Assembly: GCA_035516255.1 (NCBI GenBank)
Contig: DATJAL010000051.1
Location: 62,001-126,000 of the forward strand
DNA: 64,000 bases
Direction of reading: 5' to 3'
Source: Chitinivibrionales bacterium
GTDB taxonomy: Bacteria; Fibrobacterota; Chitinivibrionia; Chitinivibrionales; FEN-1185
Part shown: one piece after another, positions 36,953 to 47,987 of the stretch
Numbering within the stretch: position 1 is the stretch's first letter
Layout of the letters: every line of letters starts with the position of its first letter
Translations under genes and position numbers: made by a program
The notes under the pieces: generated by a model
Told to the model about the DNA's origin: nothing
What the model saw: only the letters and a program-made list of their open reading frames with translations
Database searches by the model: none

Positions 36953-37780
36953 ATGGCCGATAAAAAGAAAACCGGCAGACGAAAGGCTCATTCCGTGGTG
37001 CCGGTTAAAAAAAATCTCAAAATAGATCCCGGTGCATCAAAGGCCGGAAAGCGTGGAGGCAAGGTGCTGCCAGGGAAACCCGAAGTACCGGCGGAAAGCA
37101 CTCCGGCCAAGAAAGAGGGCTCTCCTTTTTTGGCGGGAGCGTCTGAAGATGTTGACACCGGCGGCCAAGCATTAAAAGAAATCTTTTCGGCCTCCGGGAC
37201 CCACGGGGGACCGAAATATTTTTTTACAACGGAGATTCCGAACGAATACAACGAGACCTATATGCGGGTCATTCCGAGGGATCCGGAATGGCTGTTTTTA
37301 TACTGGGAGATCAGCAGCCCCACCCTGGAAAAGGTGAAGAAGCGAATGGGTGTTGCGTTTGAATCCTCAAAAAAAATCCTGCGTCTTTATTTCGCGCACG
37401 CCGATCAGTACGTCGACAGGGAGATCGATGCGTTCGCGAACAACTGGTACGTGCGGGTGCCCGAACCGGGAATGACCTACTATGCTGAATGCGGATTCCT
37501 CACCGCGGACGGAAGATATTTTGCCGCGGTGCGGTCGAACGTTGCGGTTGCCCCTCGTTACGGAATGAGTCCCGACACTGACCAGGATTGGGTATCGGCG
37601 ACCACCGGCGAATTGATCCGGCTTTCGACCGGACGGCGGCTGACCTTCCTGGGCGCGAGCGAAAAAAGGTTTGGAGAGGAAGAAGAAAAAGAAAACGCCG
37701 TTGAAATGGGGGAATTTTTCAGCCCTGCTGCCGGGTCGGGATCGGGGTTGTTTGGTATGTCGGGGGACGGGAGGAAATAA
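36953..37780 (+). CDS. DUF4912 protein 1 of the alpha-glucan locus
   Basis: A 275-residue protein. A basic, Lys-rich disordered N-terminal part (about 1-75) is followed by one DUF4912 domain (about 82-215) with the signature YFFTTEIPNEYNETYMRVIP and RDPEWLFLYWEIS, then YYAECGFLTADGRYFAAVRS. The tail (about 220-275) is acidic then Gly/Ser-rich. The domain's function is unknown; its consistent placement here beside glycosyltransferases and GH57 enzymes suggests carbohydrate binding or scaffolding. ATG 36953 is chosen because the frame before it overlaps the NmrA gene. Closely resembles the protein at 44738-45397. Confidence 0.87.
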   Translation: MADKKKTGRRKAHSVVPVKKNLKIDPGASKAGKRGGKVLPGKPEVPAESTPAKKEGSPFLAGASEDVDTGGQALKEIFSASGTHGGPKYFFTTEIPNEYNETYMRVIPRDPEWLFLYWEISSPTLEKVKKRMGVAFESSKKILRLYFAHADQYVDREIDAFANNWYVRVPEPGMTYYAECGFLTADGRYFAAVRSNVAVAPRYGMSPDTDQDWVSATTGELIRLSTGRRLTFLGASEKRFGEEEEKENAVEMGEFFSPAAGSGSGLFGMSGDGRK

Positions 37781-37945
37781 AAGTTCTCTCGCAAAGGCCG
37801 CCACGGTCGCCAAGGACATAGGTACTTTCACCCCGGTCCAGATTGAGAAATATACAAATGCGACAGGCGGTCATGTGCCGCGCAAAAGGCAGGACCGGAG
37901 GCCGCGGCAGACCGAGGGCGTGCCCCGGACCAGAAGGGCGGCCGG

Positions 37946-37974
37946 CCCTGCCTCGCATGAGGTGCGAGGCGGGG
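37946..37974. terminator. Strong hairpin between convergent DUF4912 and GT4 genes
   Basis: CCCTGCCTCGCA (37946-37957) pairs with TGCGAGGCGGGG (37963-37974), 12 bp with one G-T wobble and a 5-base loop. No long T run follows on either strand, so it may need Rho or act as an mRNA 3' end stabiliser. Confidence 0.5.
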
Positions 37975-38029
37975 ATACGCCCGTATTTTCATTCTTTACA
38001 AATAGAAACAAACAAAAGGCAGACCCTTT

Positions 38030-39373
38030 CTACGCCGCCACCGTCTCCGCCGTTTCCTTGTATTCAACAAGCTCAATGCTCGTTTCCTCAACGGCCGTTT
38101 TTCCCATTTCCATAATTTCTTCTATGTCGGTCTCTTTCGGCCCCGTCTCGGCGGTTTTCTCTTCCTGCCGGCCGGCCGGAGCCTGCTCGAAAATCTGAGG
38201 CCGGGGGACCAATTGGTAATAAACATCGAGCGTTTTTTCTGAAATGGTGTCCCAGGAAAAACATTTTTCCGCGGCGAAGCGGCCGTTCTGGCCCATCCAG
38301 CGGGCATGCTCGAAATTGGAAAAGAGCGTGCCGAGGCCCCACGAAATGGAATCAACGGTCGCATTGACTTTGTAACCGGTCACGTTGTGCCAGAGCAGCT
38401 CCGACGGCCCGCCGTTGTCGGTGGCGACAACGGGTTTCCCCGCGGCCCACGCCTCGAGGATCACGATGCCGAAAGGCTCGTTGCGGCTGGGCACGCACAC
38501 GCAGTCGCACGCCTTGTAGAGGTCGATCAGTTGCCATCTGTCAAGATATCCGAAGAAGCGGGTTGCGTGGTACACGCCGAGCTGCCATGCCCGCGCTTCC
38601 ACGCTGCCGTGCAGGTTGCCGTCTCCGGCGGCGAACACGAATTTCGCCCGCGGATAAAATTTGAGGATGTTCGGGATCGACTCCACGAGCAGGTCGGGGC
38701 CTTTCTGCGAAGTCATCCTTCCGACGAACAGGACAACGGGGTCGAGCGGCGCGATCCCGTATCTCGCCTTTACCGCGGCGGGATTGATCCATCCGTTAAA
38801 GTGCCAGTACGAAATGCCGTTGTGCACCGCGCTTACTTTCCAATCGGGGATTGAGTATATCCACTTGACCTCGTTCTTGAGGGCGTTTGACACGGCGATG
38901 ACACGGTCGGCCTCGAACGCGCCGAACCATTCGATGTCGCGGATGGTTTTCGAAATTCCCTTGTGGAAAACGTTCCCGCTCCGTCCGAACTCCGTTGAAT
39001 GGACGGTGAAAACGGTCTTTCGCCCCCGTCCCCACTTGATCCACGCGAGCGCATGAGCGGTGAGCCAGTCGTGCGCGTGAACGATGTCGAACGCGCCCGC
39101 AAAATCCTCGGCGGCGTACACCGCAGACACGATCGAACGGCACATGTTTTTGTTTTCCTCGACCGGGTCGGAATGGGACGAATAAGGACACCGATGGTAA
39201 TGGACGCCATCGATGCATTCGTAAAGGGGGTGGTTGGGACGGCCGAGTCTGGTGAATACATGCACCTCGTGGCCTTTGCGTTCGAGCGCGCATGCCAGTT
39301 CGGTAACGTGGTATGCCACGCCGCCCATCATTATTGAATGGAGCGATTCCCACGAAAGAAATGCTATCCGCAT
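38030..39373 (-). CDS. GT4-family glycosyltransferase (starch/glycogen-synthase-like)
   Basis: A 447-residue cytoplasmic GT-B glycosyltransferase. The N-terminal domain has MMGGVAYHVTELACALERKG (glycine-rich acceptor loop) and VHAHDWLTAHALAW followed by TVHSTEFGRSG. The C-terminal domain has VLFVGRMTSQKGPDLLVESI and the E-x7-E donor motif in NEPFGIVILEAWAAGKPVVA, so it looks catalytically complete. The acceptor side resembles synthases that use a nucleotide sugar to extend alpha-glucan. An extra tail of about 45 residues rich in Glu and Thr is unusual. Own sigma-54-type promoter, divergent from the DUF4912-GT4 operon. Confidence 0.9.
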   Translation of the reverse strand: MRIAFLSWESLHSIMMGGVAYHVTELACALERKGHEVHVFTRLGRPNHPLYECIDGVHYHRCPYSSHSDPVEENKNMCRSIVSAVYAAEDFAGAFDIVHAHDWLTAHALAWIKWGRGRKTVFTVHSTEFGRSGNVFHKGISKTIRDIEWFGAFEADRVIAVSNALKNEVKWIYSIPDWKVSAVHNGISYWHFNGWINPAAVKARYGIAPLDPVVLFVGRMTSQKGPDLLVESIPNILKFYPRAKFVFAAGDGNLHGSVEARAWQLGVYHATRFFGYLDRWQLIDLYKACDCVCVPSRNEPFGIVILEAWAAGKPVVATDNGGPSELLWHNVTGYKVNATVDSISWGLGTLFSNFEHARWMGQNGRFAAEKCFSWDTISEKTLDVYYQLVPRPQIFEQAPAGRQEEKTAETGPKETDIEEIMEMGKTAVEETSIELVEYKETAETVAA

Positions 39374-39495
39374 GGTTGTTTACTCCTTTTGTTAAGGTGG
39401 ATATGCCGATATCCCCTTCATCCGGGACATTTGCGGAGACACCGTGAACCAAAATTTCTTTCGGCGCGAGAAATTCTCAAAACTTTTTTTATTTT

Positions 39496-39509
39496 GCAAA
39501 ACATATGCC
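39496..39509 (-). promoter_or_regulatory. Sigma-54-type promoter of the GT4 gene
   Basis: Minus-strand CTGGCATATGTTTTGCAAA, close to consensus in both elements, 123 bases from the start at 39373. Confidence 0.75.
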
Positions 39510-39714
39510 AGAAAAAAACATGGTTCGGAAAAAGAATTGGGGTTAACAAAGTGCAAAAGCTGAAAACATTTTTCATTGATGCGAAATTCCTTTTGCAAAA
39601 ACGGGAGCACCGCGCGTCCAGCGGCGGCCCCAAGGCTCCGGGAAAATGGGAGACGCCGCCGGCATATCCGTTTTTTTGAACGATCAAAGCAACGGCCAAA
39701 GCGCCCCCGCGCTT

Positions 39715-39728
39715 GGCATTTCATTTGC
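39715..39728 (+). promoter_or_regulatory. Sigma-54-type promoter of the DUF4912-GT4/GH57 operon
   Basis: Plus-strand TTGGCATTTCATTTGCGA, exact GG-N10-GC with TTGC, 64 bases before the ATG at 39792. Its position inside the longest open frame rules out the earlier starts of that frame. Confidence 0.75.
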
Positions 39729-39791
39729 GATTTTAGAACCCGTTTTCGCAAAATGCTGCACGCTTTCCATGGTAATGAGAAAAGAGGGGGG

Positions 39792-41462
39792 ATGCCCCAG
39801 AATATTGCTTGTCAAGAATTACGCGACGTGTGCTGGTCGCTGGGCACCGCCTTTCCGGCGCCGTTCACCGCTGAGCGCATCGGCGCGGTAATGGTCCGGC
39901 CCAGATTTTATTTTTTACACTGGCATATCCCGCAGGAATCCATTGACCGCCTGCGCGCCGCCCAGGGAGATGCCTTCGGGGGCAGCCGGCTGGTCATACG
40001 GATCTACGACGTGACCGATATCATTTTCAATGGTTTCAACGCGCACCGTTGGTTCGACATCACCGTCAACAGCCCCACCGGATCGTACTACGCCGTCATC
40101 GACTGGCCGGGACGCAACATGCTGCTCGAAGCCGGGTTCCGCCTTGTCAATAATACCTTTTGCCCGTGCGTCAGGTCGCCGGTCATCTATGTGGAACGGC
40201 ACAACGCGGCGGGCGCGTTTTGCACCGACGCCCTGTTTGTGGGCCCCGCCTACAGCAGGGTGTTCAAGGTGTCCGACATTTTTTCGCTGCCCCTGTTCGA
40301 GGAGATGGGCAGCAGCATCAGCGAAGCCCCCGATCCGTCCGTCGCCGTTGTGGTGCTGCGGCTGCCGCATTATCAGGTGGGCCGCGACCCGCTCGCGTTG
40401 TCGGCGATGCGCGTCTCGTCGCGGTGCAGGGTCATGAAGAGCAGGATGCAGTTGTTTTCCCCCCAAATCGTCACTGACGGCAACGCGGCCGAGCTGATAC
40501 GCGGAGCGGGCGAGCTCGCACCGCTGGTGGTCGACCGCATTCGATGCAAACATGCTCGCGCTCCATTCAGCCTCATCCACTGTCACGAATGGTACTCATC
40601 GATCATCGCCTGCGAGGCGGCGTGCAGGCTGGGGGTACCGCTGGTGCTCACCCTGCATTCGACCGAGCGGCAGCGGAGCGGTTCCCCGGAGCTCTCGCAG
40701 AATTCGCTGCTCGTCGTTGAAAAAGAAAAAGAAGCGATTGCCAATGCGGAATACGTCGTCGTCCCGTCGGAGGACGCCTTCGAAAGCGTCGTGCGCGATT
40801 ACGGGACACCATCTTCAAAGGTGGTGATCATCCCCGATGTGCTATTCCAAAAGGGCGAGGCGGCCCGGTCGTCGGAAGACATCAAACGCGGATTGGGCCT
40901 CAACCAGCATGCGCCATTGGTGCTTTTTGCCGGCGAAGTTTCTTACGCCGCGGGCGCAGACCTTCTCCTCGATGCCGCCGGCGGACTGATCGCCGAGCGC
41001 GGCGCGGTCAATTTCGTATTCGTGGGAGAAGGCCCGCTCAAGCGCGACCTTGAGAACCGCGCACGGGCACGGGGAAACGGCGAGCTATGCCGTTTTTTCG
41101 GCCACGCTTCATCCGACGTATTCAACATGCTGCTGCAGGCGTGCAGCTTTGTGGCGCAGCCGGCGCGTGCTCGGCAGGACGAGTCGGTGGCGCGCCTGGC
41201 GCTTGCCGGCGGCAAGCCCGTGCTCACCACCCACCAGGCCGGAATTTCCTGCGTATCGCACGGCCATAACGGACTTGTCGCATACGACAATCCCGGCTCA
41301 ATAGCATGGGGCCTCAAAGAGATGTTCAACAGGCCGTTGTTCATGTTTCCCGGACGCCGCGGCGCCGCGCCGGGGCAGCAGACGTTCGATTCGGTCGCGG
41401 CGCGTTATTTCATGCTGTACTATAAAGTCCTTCACGAAGTCAAGGAACCCGCCCATGGCTAA
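39792..41462 (+). CDS. DUF4912 - GT4 glycosyltransferase fusion protein
   Basis: A 556-residue two-domain protein. The N-terminal part (about 25-185) is a divergent DUF4912 domain: RPRFYFLHWHIPQESIDRLR, IRIYDVTDIIFNGFNAHRWF, MLLEAGFRLVNNTFCPCVRS. The rest (about 190-550) is a GT4 domain related to the protein at 38030: FSLIHCHEWYSSIIACEAAC, TLHSTERQRSG, VLFAGEVSYAAGADLLLDAA. The E-x7-E donor motif is lost; aligned at GKPV, the two Glu are replaced by Arg and Leu. It may be a glucan-binding scaffold rather than an active transferase. ATG 39792 is set by AAGAGGGGGG and the promoter. It overlaps the next gene by eight bases. Confidence 0.82.
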   Translation: MPQNIACQELRDVCWSLGTAFPAPFTAERIGAVMVRPRFYFLHWHIPQESIDRLRAAQGDAFGGSRLVIRIYDVTDIIFNGFNAHRWFDITVNSPTGSYYAVIDWPGRNMLLEAGFRLVNNTFCPCVRSPVIYVERHNAAGAFCTDALFVGPAYSRVFKVSDIFSLPLFEEMGSSISEAPDPSVAVVVLRLPHYQVGRDPLALSAMRVSSRCRVMKSRMQLFSPQIVTDGNAAELIRGAGELAPLVVDRIRCKHARAPFSLIHCHEWYSSIIACEAACRLGVPLVLTLHSTERQRSGSPELSQNSLLVVEKEKEAIANAEYVVVPSEDAFESVVRDYGTPSSKVVIIPDVLFQKGEAARSSEDIKRGLGLNQHAPLVLFAGEVSYAAGADLLLDAAGGLIAERGAVNFVFVGEGPLKRDLENRARARGNGELCRFFGHASSDVFNMLLQACSFVAQPARARQDESVARLALAGGKPVLTTHQAGISCVSHGHNGLVAYDNPGSIAWGLKEMFNRPLFMFPGRRGAAPGQQTFDSVAARYFMLYYKVLHEVKEPAHG

Positions 41463-43077
41463 CGGATATCTCGCCCTTGTCCTCCACGCCCATTTACCCT
41501 ACGTGCGGCACCCCGAATACGAATCATTTCTCGAGGAGCGGTGGTTCCTCGAAGCCATGACCGAGACGTACATCAGTACCATGCGGATGCTCGAGCGGCT
41601 GGTCGCCGACGGTGTGCCCTGCAAGATCACCTATTCCGTTTCTCCCACGCTTCTCTCCATGATGGAAGACCCGCTGCTCCAGGAACGCTATCTCCGCCAC
41701 ATCACGAAGCTGTGCGAGCTTGCCGAACGGGAAATCGAGCGCAACGCCTTTGACGAGCGGTTCAAACGCCTCGCCGAAATGTACCGCTGGCTTTTCACCG
41801 AGGCGCGCGATTATTTCCTTTCGTGCGACTGCCGCCTGGCCGTGCGCCTCAAGGCGCTGCACGAGCGCGGGACGGTGGAGCTGATCACCACCTCGGCGAC
41901 GCATGCGCTTCTTCCCGTGGCGGCCTCGCAACCGGCCATGGCCGAAGCACAGGTCGCGACCGGCCTGTCGTATTTCGAGGAGGTGTTCGGGTTCCGTCCG
42001 CGCGGCATATGGCTTCCCGAGTGCGCATATGCGCCGGGGCTCGACGACATCCTGCGGCGGGAAGGGGTGCGATATTTTCTTACCGAGTCACATGCCATTT
42101 CGTGGGCCAGCAACCGTCCGATGTTCGGGTTGTACGCGCCGCTCTACACCCCCAGCGGCGCTGCGGCGTTCGGACGGGATGAACAGAGCACCGAGCAGGT
42201 CTGGTCGTCGAAGAAAGGGTATCCGGGCGATCCATGGTACCGCGAGTTCTACCGCGACATCGGCTATGAACTTGACATGAGCTATATCGGCCCTTACATC
42301 GCCTCCGACCGGCGGGTGGACACCGGCATCAAATACCATCGCATCACCGGCCGCGACGCCGCCTGGAAGGAACCGTACGAGCCGTCGGTCGCGCGCCAGC
42401 GCGCCGCCGACCACGCGGGCGATTTTCTCGGCAGGCGCATCGATCAGGTACAGCGCCTCAGCAGCTCGATGAACATCGAGCCGGTGATCGTCACCTCGTT
42501 CGACGCGGAGCTGTTCGGCCACTGGTGGTTCGAAGGCCCGCAATGGCTCGATTTTTTGATACGAAAGACCGTTTATGACCAGAACACGGTGGCGCTCACC
42601 ACGCCCGGCGAGTTTCTGGCGCGCCACCCCGTGCACCAGATCGGAGTTCCCTATACGTCAAGTTGGGGGTACGAGGGATATTTCGAGGCCTGGATCAACG
42701 GTAAGACCGACTGGATTTACCCCCATCTGTTCGAAAGCGGGCGGCGTCTGCACGACCTTGCGTCGCGGTTTTCGGTACAGCCCCCCGGCGACCTTGCTTC
42801 GCGCGCGCTCAAGCAGTGCTGCCGCGAGCTGCTCCTGGCGCAGAGCTCCGACTGGCCGTTCATCATTTCGAACGGCACCGCCGAGCAATACGCGGTGCGA
42901 CGGGTAAAAGACCATCTGGCGCGGTTCCGCGCGCTCGCCGACGCCATCGACGGCGGCGCGATCAACGAACGCCAGCTGTCGGCGCTTGAATGCATAGACA
43001 ATATTTTTCCTTCCATCGATTATCGGGTGTTCGCCGGCGGAAAAGCCAAGGCGGCGGTGAACGGAGAGAAACCATGA
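41455..43077 (+). CDS. GH57 1,4-alpha-glucan branching enzyme (DUF1957 type)
   Basis: A 540-residue GH57 enzyme. Family motif 1 is LHAHLPYVRHPE (residues 10-21), the nucleophile Glu is in GIWLPECAY (about 185), the acid/base Asp is in SFDAELFGHWWFEGP (about 345), and the last motif is WGYEGYFEAWINGKTDW. The C-terminal helical DUF1957 domain (about 420-520) is typical of branching enzymes, which cut an alpha-1,4 chain and rejoin it as an alpha-1,6 branch. Length matches the short archaeal/bacterial group. Overlapping both neighbours, it is clearly part of one operon and would branch the product of the GT4 enzymes. Confidence 0.92.
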   Translation: MANGYLALVLHAHLPYVRHPEYESFLEERWFLEAMTETYISTMRMLERLVADGVPCKITYSVSPTLLSMMEDPLLQERYLRHITKLCELAEREIERNAFDERFKRLAEMYRWLFTEARDYFLSCDCRLAVRLKALHERGTVELITTSATHALLPVAASQPAMAEAQVATGLSYFEEVFGFRPRGIWLPECAYAPGLDDILRREGVRYFLTESHAISWASNRPMFGLYAPLYTPSGAAAFGRDEQSTEQVWSSKKGYPGDPWYREFYRDIGYELDMSYIGPYIASDRRVDTGIKYHRITGRDAAWKEPYEPSVARQRAADHAGDFLGRRIDQVQRLSSSMNIEPVIVTSFDAELFGHWWFEGPQWLDFLIRKTVYDQNTVALTTPGEFLARHPVHQIGVPYTSSWGYEGYFEAWINGKTDWIYPHLFESGRRLHDLASRFSVQPPGDLASRALKQCCRELLLAQSSDWPFIISNGTAEQYAVRRVKDHLARFRALADAIDGGAINERQLSALECIDNIFPSIDYRVFAGGKAKAAVNGEKP

Positions 43078-44525
43078 ACGGCGACCCTGAAATCATCGAC
43101 GGCATTCCCAACATCAGCGCCACGCCGGAGGAGGAGGCGGCGCTGCGCCCCGCGGGCGGCGAACCCTATGCCGCGCTCTCCAATATCAACATGAGCAGGG
43201 TGCAGGCGTGTTTCGGGCTTGCCCTCCACATGCACCAACCCACGATACCGGCGGCGCATGCCGACCTGCGGACGGCCGACCTGATATCAAACCTTCAACA
43301 TATGATGGGACACCAGAACGCTGGCGACAACCACAACGCGCCGGTGTTCCTGTGGTGCTACAGCCGTATGTCGGATTTCATCCGCGAACTCGCGGGACAG
43401 GGTCATAACCCGCGCATCATGCTTGACTATTCGGGAAACTTGCTGTGGGGCCTGCGCCAGATGGGGCAGGGGCACGTCCTTGAAAACCTGCGCCTCATCG
43501 CTTCCGGCGAGAGCTACCGGCGCTACGTTGAGTGGCTCGGCACCATGTGGTCGCACGCGGTGGTGTCGTCCACGCCCGTGCCCGACATCAAACTGCACAT
43601 CATGGCTTGGCGCCGCCACTTTGCCTCCATTTTCGGCTTCGAGGCGGCCCGCCGGGTAAAGGGTTTTTCGCCCCCCGAAATGCATCTGCCGATCCATCCC
43701 GACGTGTGTTACCAATATGTCAAGGCACTCAAAGAATGCGGATATGAGTGGCTCATGGTCCAGCAGCACACCATAGAGAATCTCGACGGCGGCGGCATCG
43801 TGAGGCCGCATTTTCCGCACCGTCTCGTGGCACGGAATTCGGTGGGAGAAGTCGAGGAGATAACCGTCCTTGTCAAGACGCAAGGCTCCGACACCAAGCT
43901 GGTGGCGCAGATGCAGCCGTATTATGAAGCCAAGACCCTCAGACCTCAGGACTACGCGGGCGCCGTGGTTCCCCCCTATGTGCTGCAGATCGGCGACGGC
44001 GAAAACGGCGGGGTCATGATGAACGAGTTCCCCTCCGCGTATAAAAAAGATTTTGGATCCATCGGCACCGAAGGTGTCGTCGCGATGAACGGCTCCGAAT
44101 ATCTGGAGATGATCCGGCGCATGGGGGCGAGGGACTCCTCGTTTGTCGCGGTGCAGCCGGTGTCCCAGCATCGCATCTGGGACGAAGTCGCCTGCAAACG
44201 CGGCCCCGGCGCTTGCGACGAGGCCATTGAAAGAATAACCGACCTCGATCCGTCGTTCAACCTCGATCGCGCTTCGTGGACCAACAACATCAGCTGGGTA
44301 AAGAATTACGAATCGGTGCTCGACCCCATGAACCGGCTCAGCAGCATGTTCCATTCGCGGTTCGACAACGATGCCGCCGCGCGGCAAGGATTCTCTTTTC
44401 GCAAGGCCCTCCTCTTCCTGCTCCTTTCTCAGACGAGTTGCTTCCGGTATTGGGGCCACGGCATCTGGACCGAATACGGCAAGGAGATCTGCAGGCGGGG
44501 AATAGAGTACATTTCGGGGCTTTGA
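43074..44525 (+). CDS. Second GH57 alpha-glucan hydrolase/transferase
   Basis: A 483-residue GH57 protein with an N-terminal extension (about 1-42). Motif 1 is FGLALHMHQPTIP, the catalytic Glu is likely in GFSPPEMHLPIHPD (about 203), and the acid/base region is IGDGENGGVMMNEFPSAY. It lacks the DUF1957 C-terminal domain and is not a close copy of the branching enzyme, so it may be an amylase, glucanotransferase or debranching-type enzyme of the same glucan. Its ATG overlaps the stop of the branching-enzyme gene (ATGA). Last gene of the 39792 operon; a hairpin follows. Confidence 0.87.
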   Translation: MNGDPEIIDGIPNISATPEEEAALRPAGGEPYAALSNINMSRVQACFGLALHMHQPTIPAAHADLRTADLISNLQHMMGHQNAGDNHNAPVFLWCYSRMSDFIRELAGQGHNPRIMLDYSGNLLWGLRQMGQGHVLENLRLIASGESYRRYVEWLGTMWSHAVVSSTPVPDIKLHIMAWRRHFASIFGFEAARRVKGFSPPEMHLPIHPDVCYQYVKALKECGYEWLMVQQHTIENLDGGGIVRPHFPHRLVARNSVGEVEEITVLVKTQGSDTKLVAQMQPYYEAKTLRPQDYAGAVVPPYVLQIGDGENGGVMMNEFPSAYKKDFGSIGTEGVVAMNGSEYLEMIRRMGARDSSFVAVQPVSQHRIWDEVACKRGPGACDEAIERITDLDPSFNLDRASWTNNISWVKNYESVLDPMNRLSSMFHSRFDNDAAARQGFSFRKALLFLLLSQTSCFRYWGHGIWTEYGKEICRRGIEYISGL

Positions 44526-44574
44526 CAGATTTATCTTTATGCCTTTCGATAGGAAGTCTCTCCTGGTCCCCGGC

Positions 44575-44617
44575 TTCCTGCAAGGCCGCGCAGGAACGCG
44601 GTTCCGCCCCGCTTTTT
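44575..44617 (+). terminator. Possible terminator of the GT4/GH57 operon
   Basis: TTCCTGC (44575-44581) pairs with GCAGGAA (44590-44596); TTTTT comes 16-20 bases later, further than usual. It lies about 50 bases after the second GH57 stop. Confidence 0.4.
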
Positions 44618-44630
44618 GATTGATGATTTC

Positions 44631-44644
44631 GGACAAAGGATTGC
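44631..44644 (+). promoter_or_regulatory. Weak sigma-54-type promoter of DUF4912 protein 2
   Basis: Plus-strand CGGACAAAGGATTGCGG: GG-N10-GC and TTGC are present, but the -24 element is CGGACA rather than TGGCA. It lies 94 bases before the start at 44738. Confidence 0.4.
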
Positions 44645-44737
44645 GGAATTAAAGGTAAAAAGCGGATGCGTTTTCAATCAATCGCGATTTATGCCCGAGA
44701 TCCTTAAGCGTTCCGCACGAAAAAAGGGAGGAACACC

Positions 44738-45397
44738 ATGAAAAGATCTTTTGAAACCCAAGAGTCAGGCACGGAGCACAAACCATCCGGCCGTGAAGAT
44801 AGGCCAGGCGGTCAGCGGTCCGACGACTTGGTCGTTTCCGGCGATTTCGATGACGGGTTCAGCTCTTCTTCGCTGCAGCGGCCGGCATCGCGGCCCAGAT
44901 ATTTTTTCCGCCCCGACATTCCCGAAGAGTACGGCCAGACGTACATGCGCGCGCTCCCGAGGGACCCTGAATGGATTTACGTGTATTGGGAAATCAACGA
45001 CGATACGAAGAATTCGCTCATCCAGAAAATGGGGACGCCGGCGTTCGAGTCTTCCGTGCGAGTACTACGTTTGATTGACGTGAGCGGAATCGACTACAAC
45101 GGCTCGAACGCCAGCCGATACCAGGACACGCCCATCGAGGACTACACCAGGGCCTGGTATTTTCACGTCAAGAAAGAGGGAAAGACCTTCGTCGTCGAGT
45201 GCGGATTCCTCACCCAGGACGGCAAATTCTTCGCCGCGGTCCGCTCGAATCCCGTCGAGGTTCCCAAACGCGGCCTGAGCGCCGATGTCGACGCGCAGTG
45301 GCATGCGGCAAACACCCCCGAGTTGATCAAGGCGTCCGCCCACGGCATGCGGGGGACCTCAGGCGCGAGCGAAAGCAGATTCGACACCAGGCTGTGA
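44738..45397 (+). CDS. DUF4912 protein 2 of the alpha-glucan locus
   Basis: A 219-residue protein with a polar N-terminal tail (about 1-50) and one DUF4912 domain (about 52-195). RYFFRPDIPEEYGQTYMRAL then PRDPEWIYVYWEIN and VECGFLTQDGKFFAAVRSN match protein 1 (36953) almost residue for residue, and the inserted LIDVSGIDYNGSNASRYQD matches the fusion protein's IYDVTDIIFNGFNAHRWFD. The three domains are thus clear paralogues. ATG 44738 follows AAAGGGAGGAAC. Function unknown; context points to alpha-glucan metabolism. Confidence 0.88.
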   Translation: MKRSFETQESGTEHKPSGREDRPGGQRSDDLVVSGDFDDGFSSSSLQRPASRPRYFFRPDIPEEYGQTYMRALPRDPEWIYVYWEINDDTKNSLIQKMGTPAFESSVRVLRLIDVSGIDYNGSNASRYQDTPIEDYTRAWYFHVKKEGKTFVVECGFLTQDGKFFAAVRSNPVEVPKRGLSADVDAQWHAANTPELIKASAHGMRGTSGASESRFDTRL

Positions 45398-45444: not shown

Positions 45445-46260
45445 ATGGACTACGAAATCACCGATTTCGAGCAGGACGTCATTGAAAAAAGCAAAGAGAT
45501 CCCGGTGCTCGCCGATTTCTGGGCGGAGTGGTGCGCTCCCTGCAAAGTGCTTGGCCCGATTTTGGAGCGGCTGGCGGAGAAAAACGCCGGCAAATGGATA
45601 TTGGTAAAAGTAAACACCGAGGCCCACCAGGACGTCGCCCTGCGGTATAAAATAGGGAGCATACCGGATGTAAAGCTCTTTATCGGCGGCGAGGTGGTGG
45701 ACGAGTTCCTGGGTGCGCTGCCTGAGGAGCTTATCGTAAAGTGGCTCAAGGAAGTAATCCCGGGAAAGTACGACGCCCAGATGAAGGAATCGCTCGACCT
45801 GCTCAAAAGCGGCCAGGCGGAGCGGGCCGCCGTGCTGCTCGAACAGGTGTTGGAAGCTGAACCGGGAAATAGTGAAGCAAAAGTTCTGCTGGGACGGGCA
45901 CTCATCTTCTCAGACCCCGACCGTGCGGAATCCCTGTGCCGGGAAGTCCAGCCTGGCGATGAGGTTTACGAAACCGCGGAAATGGTCCTTCAATGTTCTG
46001 CGCTCTTGAAAAAGAGAAATGATCCTGATGCGCTGGCTGACGCTCCTGTCAAGGCCTTGTACCTTGATGCCATCGATTCCCTTTCGCGCCAGGATTTCGA
46101 TTCGGCGCTGGGTAAAATGATCCGGGTGATGGAAAAAGACCGGGCATTCGAAGGCGACGGGGCAAAAAAAGCCTGCATTGCCATTTTTCATTGCTTGGGT
46201 GAGGATCATGAGATTACCAAGAAACACCGGCATGCGTTTGGAAGGGTGTTGAATGTGTAA
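45445..46260 (+). CDS. CnoX-like thioredoxin-TPR protein
   Basis: A 271-residue cytoplasmic protein with a thioredoxin domain (about 1-108) and a C-terminal TPR-like helical domain (about 115-271). The active site is WAEWCAPCK (Cys30, Cys33), one residue off the usual WCGPC, and the cis-Pro is in SIPDVKL. The two-domain layout is that of CnoX/YbbN, a redox-regulated holdase that hands clients to GroEL or DnaK. Length is close to YbbN (about 280). It follows the alpha-glucan locus by 47 bases, with no identified promoter except AT-rich sequence (TATTTTATATTTAAAG). Confidence 0.9.
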   Translation: MDYEITDFEQDVIEKSKEIPVLADFWAEWCAPCKVLGPILERLAEKNAGKWILVKVNTEAHQDVALRYKIGSIPDVKLFIGGEVVDEFLGALPEELIVKWLKEVIPGKYDAQMKESLDLLKSGQAERAAVLLEQVLEAEPGNSEAKVLLGRALIFSDPDRAESLCREVQPGDEVYETAEMVLQCSALLKKRNDPDALADAPVKALYLDAIDSLSRQDFDSALGKMIRVMEKDRAFEGDGAKKACIAIFHCLGEDHEITKKHRHAFGRVLNV

Positions 46261-46298: not shown

Positions 46299-47987
46299 AT
46301 GATTACGATCAACCAACAAAAGATCACTTTAACCACCTTCAAGGAGGCCAATATTAAAACGATCTTTATCATTGCGGGAGCCTGTGCCGCGATCCTGATG
46401 CAGGGATTTTCCGGGGGTAGTGCCTCGGGCGAGGCCGCGGCCTCATCAGGGGCCGACGACCTTATAAGCATGGCGAGGTCCGGGGTGGATGAGGAGGTGC
46501 TCCAGACATACATCGAATCGTCGCAAAAGACCTATGATTTGAGTGCCGACGACATTATCACGCTCAAGGATCTCGGCGTTTCGTCAAAGGTCATCAGGGC
46601 CGCCTTGGTTCACGGCCGCCAGGTCGACACTGCGGAGGCGCGCGAGGAAATAAAGGAGGCGGCCAACGATACCGCCGCTGCGCCGCCCGTTCTTTCAGCC
46701 TCAGCCGTTGTCCCGCCCTCCGACAGCCCGACCATGTCGTTTTTTTATGAATCGCTCGCACCGTACGGAAATTGGGTCAACATAGACGGTCAGTGGTGCT
46801 GGCAGCCCAATGCGGAGGTTGTCAATCCCGAATGGGCCCCTTATTTCAACCGCGGTCACTGGGTGTATTCCGATTGGGGCTGGTGCTGGGTATCGGATTA
46901 TTCATGGGGCTGGGCGCCATTCCATTATGGACGGTGGCTTCATCACCGCACCCATGGATGGTGCTGGGTGCCCGGCACTGAGTGGGGGCCCGCATGGGTC
47001 TCTTGGAGGATGGGAGACCAATACTGCGGATGGGCGCCACTGCCGCCGAACACCCGCTACGTGGAAAATGAAGGATGGTATTTCGGGGCGTCACGCGCCG
47101 GCGTTGACTTTGAGTTCAACCTGACGCCCGACGAATATCACTTTGTGCCCACCGGCCACTTTTGCGATGCGCACCCGTGGGGGCATACGGTGCCTTCGGT
47201 CCGGGCCGATGAAGCGTACCGGCGCACCTCTTTTGTCAAGAACGGTTATAGTTACGACAGGGGGCACTTCGTCAATCGCGGACTGCCGGTCGAGGTTGTT
47301 TCCAAAGCGGCGAACAGGAAAATAACGGCCGTTCCCATCGTGAGCAGGAACCTGAGCCCGGGCCAGCCCATCCAGCACGCCCAGATGAGGAACAACGGGC
47401 TGGTTGTATACAAACCCGCGATATCGCCGGCGGCGCGAGAAAACCCCGAGGCCGTCAACGCACGGCTGCAGAGAACGTCGGCGCGGGCGACCCCGCCGGC
47501 GCAGGATTTCGCAAAACGTCAGCAGGACGCGATCGCGCAAACGGTGCAGCGGCAGAGTGCGGCGGCCCAGAATGCGATTAAGGAAAAAGCCGATCTCGAA
47601 AAGGCCGCGCAGGCCGAAGCCGATGCTAAGAAGCGCGCGGCGTTGCAGGCCGAGGCCGATGTCCGGACGATGAGGGCACAGCAGGCCCAGGCGCATGTCG
47701 CGCAAATCAAGGCTTGGACCCCGCCCAAGGCGCCTCCGGCAATGCCGCAATCAAAAGTGGTGCAGCAGCCGGCGCCCGAAAAGCAAGAGCAGGTCCGGAC
47801 CCTGGTACAGGCCCAGGTGCAGCAAGAGGCGCGGGAAGAACAGCAGCGGCAAAAGACAATGGAAGAAATGGTCAGGGCGCCCCGCGTTGAGCAGCCTCGC
47901 GCCGCGCCCCCGCCGAAGGTCGAACAAAAAAACAACAATGTCCAAAACAACAATGCACCCCGCGGAAGAGAGCCGGAGAAAAGATGA
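46299..47987 (+). CDS. Exported DUF6600 protein with Ala/Gln-rich coiled-coil tail
   Basis: A 562-residue envelope protein. A membrane or signal segment (about 20-37) is followed by a short helical domain (about 50-105; GVDEEVLQTYIESSQKTYDL, ITLKDLGVSSKVIRAAL). Then comes the aromatic DUF6600 region (about 145-250) with repeated W-x-G-W/H-W units: YGNWVNIDGQWCWQPN, NRGHWVYSDWGWCWVSDYSW, GRWLHHRTHGWCWVPGTEW. The C-terminal 180 residues are Ala/Gln/Lys coiled coil and Pro-rich. DUF6600 proteins are FecR-linked or surface proteins of unknown role. Start taken as ATG 46299; no strong ribosome site seen. Confidence 0.82.
   Translation: MITINQQKITLTTFKEANIKTIFIIAGACAAILMQGFSGGSASGEAAASSGADDLISMARSGVDEEVLQTYIESSQKTYDLSADDIITLKDLGVSSKVIRAALVHGRQVDTAEAREEIKEAANDTAAAPPVLSASAVVPPSDSPTMSFFYESLAPYGNWVNIDGQWCWQPNAEVVNPEWAPYFNRGHWVYSDWGWCWVSDYSWGWAPFHYGRWLHHRTHGWCWVPGTEWGPAWVSWRMGDQYCGWAPLPPNTRYVENEGWYFGASRAGVDFEFNLTPDEYHFVPTGHFCDAHPWGHTVPSVRADEAYRRTSFVKNGYSYDRGHFVNRGLPVEVVSKAANRKITAVPIVSRNLSPGQPIQHAQMRNNGLVVYKPAISPAARENPEAVNARLQRTSARATPPAQDFAKRQQDAIAQTVQRQSAAAQNAIKEKADLEKAAQAEADAKKRAALQAEADVRTMRAQQAQAHVAQIKAWTPPKAPPAMPQSKVVQQPAPEKQEQVRTLVQAQVQQEAREEQQRQKTMEEMVRAPRVEQPRAAPPPKVEQKNNNVQNNNAPRGREPEKR

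Follow-up and report, generated by a model that had tools for sequence, protein, structure and literature searches.

The DNA stretch analysed here, referred to as the window, comprises 64,000 nucleotides of a contig of an uncultured Chitinivibrionales bacterium (Fibrobacterota) and carries, at positions 36953-45397, a cluster of six genes in which the domain DUF4912 (PF16258) occurs three times. All six genes were found at the coordinates given in the original prediction, which had been made from the letters of the window. On the plus strand there are the genes of a stand-alone DUF4912 protein of 275 aa (36953..37780; 87.9 bits to PF16258), of a 556-aa protein in which DUF4912 (60.2 bits) is fused to a degenerate glycosyltransferase of family 4 (GT4; 39792..41462; GT4 C-terminal domain 60.7 bits), of a predicted alpha-glucan branching enzyme (BE) of the AmyC type belonging to glycoside hydrolase family 57 (GH57; 540 aa; 41455..43077; PF03065 117.1 bits, PF09210, or BE_C, 116.9 bits), of a divergent second GH57-family protein, hereafter GH57b (483 aa; 43074..44525; PF03065 25.8 bits), and of another stand-alone DUF4912 protein of 219 aa (44738..45397; 109.3 bits). 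The minus strand encodes a GT4 glycosyltransferase of 447 aa, GT4a (38030..39373; PF00534 123.9 bits), transcribed divergently from the operon. All three DUF4912 proteins score above the Pfam gathering cut-off of PF16258 (29.4 bits), and GH57b barely exceeds that of PF03065 (21.2 bits). The overlaps claimed for the fusion and both GH57 genes are indeed present, amounting to 8 bases between the fusion and BE genes (ATGGCTAA at 41455-41462) and to 4 bases between the BE and GH57b genes (ATGA at 43074-43077). Scans for promoters and terminators yielded matches no more numerous than in shuffled sequence.

The protein encoded at 41455 aligns over its full length with its closest solved relative, AmyC of Thermotoga maritima (2b5d; 491 bits), and possesses the catalytic motifs WLPECAY (E189-C190, conserved sequence region CSR-3) and FDAELFGH (D350, CSR-4). 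AmyC is a proven branching enzyme, and a Glu in CSR-3 followed by Cys is the branching signature of GH57 BEs (PMC6616209). By its domains and this signature, the protein is predicted to be a GH57 alpha-glucan branching enzyme. It scores below the NCBIfam equivalogs NF041133 (312 bits at a cut-off of 1000) and NF041566 (299 at 920), which cover Thermococcales and Thermus only, the AmyC type being outside their range. BEs linked to the fusion form a separate clade (100/99), apart from the BEs of DUF4912-BE operons. In GH57b a putative nucleophile (E202) and acid (D309) were recognized, both kept in 9/9 aligned members; the only match of this protein in a PDB sequence search, a phage tail sheath (E 0.014), was rejected as spurious.

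The association of DUF4912 with the branching enzyme extends far beyond the window. Throughout 168 Fibrobacterota genomes, 136/149 DUF4912 matches are followed on the same strand by BE_C within 4.5 kb (median 2.07 kb), and the unpaired matches mostly represent contig ends or the extra copies of this genus. Both DUF4912 and BE are encoded in 130 of these genomes, DUF4912 only in 2, BE only in 7 and neither in 29 (Fisher p 1e-23, a value which is indicative only, since the genomes compared are related). A scan across about ten phyla (Bacillota, Planctomycetota, Elusimicrobiota, Acidobacteriota, Omnitrophota, Eiseniibacteriota, Krumholzibacteriota, Nitrospirota, Sumerlaeota and Fibrobacterota among them) collected 80 DUF4912 loci, in 53 of which BE lies directly downstream, 2 of these BEs being partial at contig ends; as 7 other loci end too early to judge, the proportion is 53/73 of the testable ones. 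This sample may favour BE-adjacent loci, because the scan was seeded with Fibrobacterota DUF4912 proteins, many of them located beside a BE. Where DUF4912 is not adjacent, 17/19 genomes still encode a GH57 BE elsewhere. The expected co-occurrence of DUF4912 with GH57 BEs and alpha-glucan genes is thus borne out across phyla (136/149 matches and 53/80 loci).

Several other arrangements were encountered around DUF4912 and BE genes. Beside the DUF4912-BE pair, contigs of Eiseniibacteriota, Krumholzibacteriota and Omnitrophota (L129:5511-8231, L143:12381-14900, L144:2943-5432) encode GH57 proteins of a third type, in which the GH57 part is joined to DUF3536, and a copy is present on another contig of the window's own genome (G000:C14, L037:1264-3651). 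In Bacillota (L093:6851-9487 and 16 other loci) the opposite strand encodes, near the pair, a GT4 as well as a protein of about 830 aa of the nucleotidyltransferase-phosphohexomutase kind. The DUF4912 protein of Sumerlaeota is longer, and the place of BE behind it is taken by an AhpC/TSA-type peroxiredoxin (L099:9395-11357, L121:9419-11326, L123:53-1366, L126:9662-11321). One DUF4912-linked BE of Fibrobacteraceae (L058:7894-9471) is highly divergent (end branch 2.4) with the catalytic residues kept.

The three DUF4912 domains of the window had been thought to share both an RDPEW-type core and a DVxxI-x-x-NG-x-NA motif. In the alignment this holds for the 44738 protein, but the other two carry one motif each: RDPEW is present in the 36953 protein, in which the second motif is deleted (LRLYFAHADQ), and DVxxI-x-x-NG-x-NA is present in the fusion (DUF4912 residues 28-138), which has VRPRFYF instead of RDPEW. 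The stand-alone proteins have dissimilar N-termini, being Lys-rich and basic in the 36953 protein (isoelectric point, pI, about 10) and acidic with no basic tail in the 44738 protein (pI 4.8). Forks of the DUF4912 gene tree are mostly weak, including those bearing on the origin of the three paralogues. The AlphaFold model of the 44738 protein, built with 64 sequences, reached a mean predicted local distance difference test (pLDDT) score of 84.6, with the core above 90; among the 50 Foldseek matches listed for this model fibronectin type III (FN3) domains prevailed (E about 1e-4, target-normalised template-modelling score up to 0.68 among the matches listed). The predicted fold of DUF4912 is, according to this model, a fibronectin-III/Ig-like beta-sandwich and not a nucleic-acid-binding fold, which supports the original prediction. 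A PDB sequence search with DUF4912 found no solved relative (best E 0.69), NCBIfam names neither the DUF4912 proteins nor GH57b, and among open-licence articles no paper on DUF4912 function was retrieved, the sole full-text match being an unrelated cotton transcriptome.

The domain itself is conserved while the regions around it change, comprising in different members Lys-rich N-terminal tails (pI >10 in several of them), Rho_N or histone-like N-termini, an N-terminal hydrophobic helix, or a Glucodextran_B-like C-terminal domain (below cut-off). Rho_N exceeds its cut-off in the DUF4912 protein of L129 (29.8 bits) and is a weak match in that of L101, and there is an H1-like HC2 region, below cut-off, in those of L129 and L133; such basic N-termini (L129:8228-9340, L101:2078-3466, L133:9539-10576) are unexplained for a glycogen context.

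The two GT4 proteins of the cluster were compared in an alignment of 27 proteins (12 of the GT4a family, 5 Bacillota GT4s of DUF4912 loci, 1 GlgM and 9 fusions). All 18/18 comparison GT4s, including 12/12 of the GT4a family, keep three features of the donor site, namely the glycine loop, an Arg/Lys pair and the E-x7-E motif. All 9/9 fusions are devoid of the glycine (GG) loop, R219, K224, E299 and E307 (GT4a numbering); two histidines are kept in all 9. The best solved relative of GT4a is the alpha-maltose-1-phosphate synthase GlgM (6tvp). In the tree the GT4 half of the fusion (degenerate region about residues 246-513) sits on a long stem and groups with GT4a as its sister lineage (99/97). 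In the closest pair of fusions, on which the estimate rests, nonsynonymous divergence (dN) was 0.14 and synonymous divergence (dS) was saturated (>2), as it was in two further pairs; the resulting ratio of about 0.05 indicates that the fusion is constrained. No interrupting stop was found in its open reading frame in the genomes seen, and its structure model (mean pLDDT 62) is reliable only for DUF4912 itself and for the C-terminal half of the GT part. These features fit a duplicated, inactivated and retained subunit, that is, a predicted pseudo-glycosyltransferase. In view of the loss of every donor-site motif the fusion was rejected as an active polymerase, and the idea that it takes part in the polymerising chemistry is not supported.

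GT4a, the fusion and BE are found together again in family f3 of the order (G004, G005, G006, G015, G016, G017, G024, G025); in one more genome of this family, G018, the contig shows GT4a and the fusion only, and the same-genus genome G031 is without GT4a, GH57b and the fusion-linked BE. GH57b is encoded directly 3' of GlgA in five relatives (G004, G005, G008, G020, G025) and adjoins GT4a in G002 and G003. Outside Fibrobacterota the full cassette is known from one Omnitrophota contig, L119, in the order GT4a-DUF4912-BE-GH57b, its GT4a being 67% identical to that of the window. By these recurrent combinations GT4a, DUF4912, BE and GH57b are all tied to alpha-glucan metabolism.

It had been considered plausible that GT4 and GH57 enzymes replace GlgA and GlgB in this organism. 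The window's genome, however, encodes GlgA (532 bits, cut-off 328), GH13-type GlgB (994, cut-off 741) and GlgC (459, cut-off 425), which rules out such a replacement. Beside its GlgA/GlgB the same genome has an operon (G000:C19, L185:6733-11182) in which GlgE (GlgE_dom_N_S, 172.5 bits) is joined by a GlgM-type GT4 scoring 503 bits at a cut-off of 302 and by a second GlgC-like gene, whose 280 bits stay below the cut-off. Two further DUF4912 genes are present, one on contig C27 in a DUF4912-GH57 BE operon and a stand-alone one on C42. With GlgA, GlgB, GlgC and GlgE/GlgM all present, the locus of the window represents an additional module rather than a substitute. GlgA also exceeds its cut-off in 24/28 DUF4912 genomes outside Fibrobacterota. 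No GH13 GlgB over cut-off was found in 24/28 of them, and it is present in 12/12 Fibrobacterota tested; absences of GlgB or GlgA are provisional, because many of the genomes are metagenome assemblies. Since GlgB is mostly missing there, branching outside Fibrobacterota probably depends mainly on the GH57 enzyme linked to DUF4912. Within this phylum, Fibrobacter succinogenes accumulates glycogen up to 70% of its dry weight (PMC10308913).

Considering these data, we are inclined, with confidence slightly above even for the claim as a whole, to regard the locus as a second intracellular module for a glycogen-type alpha-glucan, in which DUF4912 would act as a non-catalytic, probably glucan-binding accessory. 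Within the cluster, sugar transfer can plausibly be ascribed to GT4a alone, whose donor site is intact and which would form or extend alpha-1,4 chains or a primer. Alpha-1,6 branches would be introduced by the GH57 BE, and GH57b may trim or transfer alpha-1,4 chains. For DUF4912 we infer the role of a beta-sandwich accessory of BE, likely binding glucan chains and so tethering the enzyme or the primer to the growing polymer. The fusion, being a GT4 duplicate without a donor site, may serve as a pseudoenzyme which transfers no sugar but binds to glucan, to the active GT4a or to both. The idea of a cell-surface glucan found no backing, as the proteins of the cluster show no visible secretion signal and no export gene occurs within it.

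Certain observations weigh against this explanation. GT4a falls under every curated glycogen-synthase cut-off, remaining GlgM/GlgA_Coryne-like (155.7 bits to TIGR02149, the model of GlgM or GT4-type glycogen synthase, at a cut-off of 302.4; the fusion scores 46.6). The polymer of the locus could differ from glycogen, because the genome already makes the latter by other routes. In 20 testable loci, mostly of Sumerlaeota, DUF4912 lies away from BE, and no CBM48 domain appeared among the 50 Foldseek matches listed, mostly FN3. The Rho_N and histone-like basic tails of some DUF4912 proteins point to polyanion contacts.

Three rival explanations were considered. DUF4912 could be a protein-binding subunit of BE (an activator, an oligomerisation factor or a scaffold) with no glucan binding at all, the fusion tethering BE to GT4a. 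FN3-type folds, such as that predicted for DUF4912, often bind proteins; moreover, DUF4912 is tightly paired with a single type of enzyme and not with a range of glucan enzymes, and a heteromer with the neighbouring GT4a is suggested by the fact that the GT4 fused to DUF4912 is its dead paralogue. A dedicated BE subunit would, however, hardly need the stand-alone copies situated off BE (C42, 36953 and 44738, as well as those of Sumerlaeota), and we consider this explanation rather unlikely. The locus might also make another polysaccharide, possibly exported or lipid-linked, or a small solute, instead of a glycogen-like store. The low scores of GT4a against both GlgM and GlgA models, the separate complete glycogen gene set in the genome and the nucleotidyltransferase-phosphohexomutase protein and GT4 near the Bacillota DUF4912-BE loci would agree with such a product; but both BE and GH57b are enzymes of the alpha-glucan type, the latter partners GlgA in relatives, GlgM is the closest solved relative of GT4a, and the cluster is free of visible secretion signals and export genes, so a product of this kind seems improbable.

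A role of DUF4912 as a nucleic-acid- or nucleoid-linked regulator, acting via Rho_N or histone-like tails on BE expression or on the placement of BE or glycogen granules, is retained despite the beta-sandwich model because Rho_N (L129, weakly L101), HC2 (L129, L133) and Lys-rich tails with pI >10 do occur; the usual position of the DUF4912 gene just upstream of the BE gene is in line with it. The conserved part of the protein is nevertheless a predicted beta-sandwich with no nucleic-acid fold, the tails are variable and absent from the 44738 protein, the fusion and several phyla, and the fusion to GT4 would be left unexplained. A regulator of this sort is, in our opinion, a very doubtful candidate.

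The second, glycogen-type module with a DUF4912 accessory, which we prefer, has partial counterparts among known systems. With T. maritima AmyC the window's BE shares the Glu-Cys nucleophile, the Asp acid, BE_C and the full-length match, but its gene is accompanied by that of a DUF4912-pseudo-GT4 fusion and by another GH57 gene. GT4a resembles GlgM and GT4-type GlgA (TIGR02149) in the GT4 fold and the full set of donor-site motifs, differing in its score far below the cut-off, whereas the true GlgM-like gene stands beside GlgE elsewhere in the genome. In archaeal clusters of Picrophilus and Methanoculleus GT4 adjoins GH57 enzymes, as it does here; a review of 2024 does not settle what this GT4 does, proposes one as an uncharacterised glycogen synthase and, in its accessible text, mentions no DUF (PMC11046441), whereas the organism studied here has GlgA and a dead GT4-DUF4912 fusion. 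GH57 BEs have been studied as free-standing enzymes, and in the sections searched of the branching-enzyme papers no conserved partner gene is mentioned.

Immediately beyond the cluster, directly 3' of the last DUF4912 gene and on the same strand, the window encodes a thioredoxin-TPR protein (45445-46260), followed by a DUF6600-domain protein (46299-47987) with the C-terminal half rich in Gln and Ala.

STARCH SYNTHASE 5 (SS5) of plants is non-catalytic. Together with the CBM48 protein PTST2 it takes part in granule initiation (PMC9578351), and this pair, a glucan-binding helper and an inactive synthase-like protein, provides a comparison in the way of working; it is not homologous at the family level, as DUF4912 is not CBM48 and the GT4 is not GT5, and the function here is a putative one. 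Tentatively, and with somewhat less than even confidence, we suggest that DUF4912 may be a widespread, hitherto unrecognised accessory subunit of GH57 BEs, which in a family of Fibrobacterota might have recruited a dead GT4 paralogue as a glucan-primer or scaffold pseudoenzyme similar to PTST2/SS5 but of independent origin. Among bacteria, a conserved protein combining DUF4912 with a pseudoglycosyltransferase would be an unusual example of a helper that assists glucan synthesis without catalysis. The question of GT4 function beside GH57 enzymes, as posed in the review (PMC11046441), becomes directly testable, and DUF4912, kept beside BEs in about ten phyla and linked to what is likely the main branching enzyme where GH13 GlgB is missing, offers a testable handle on the priming, branching or sizing of bacterial glycogen.

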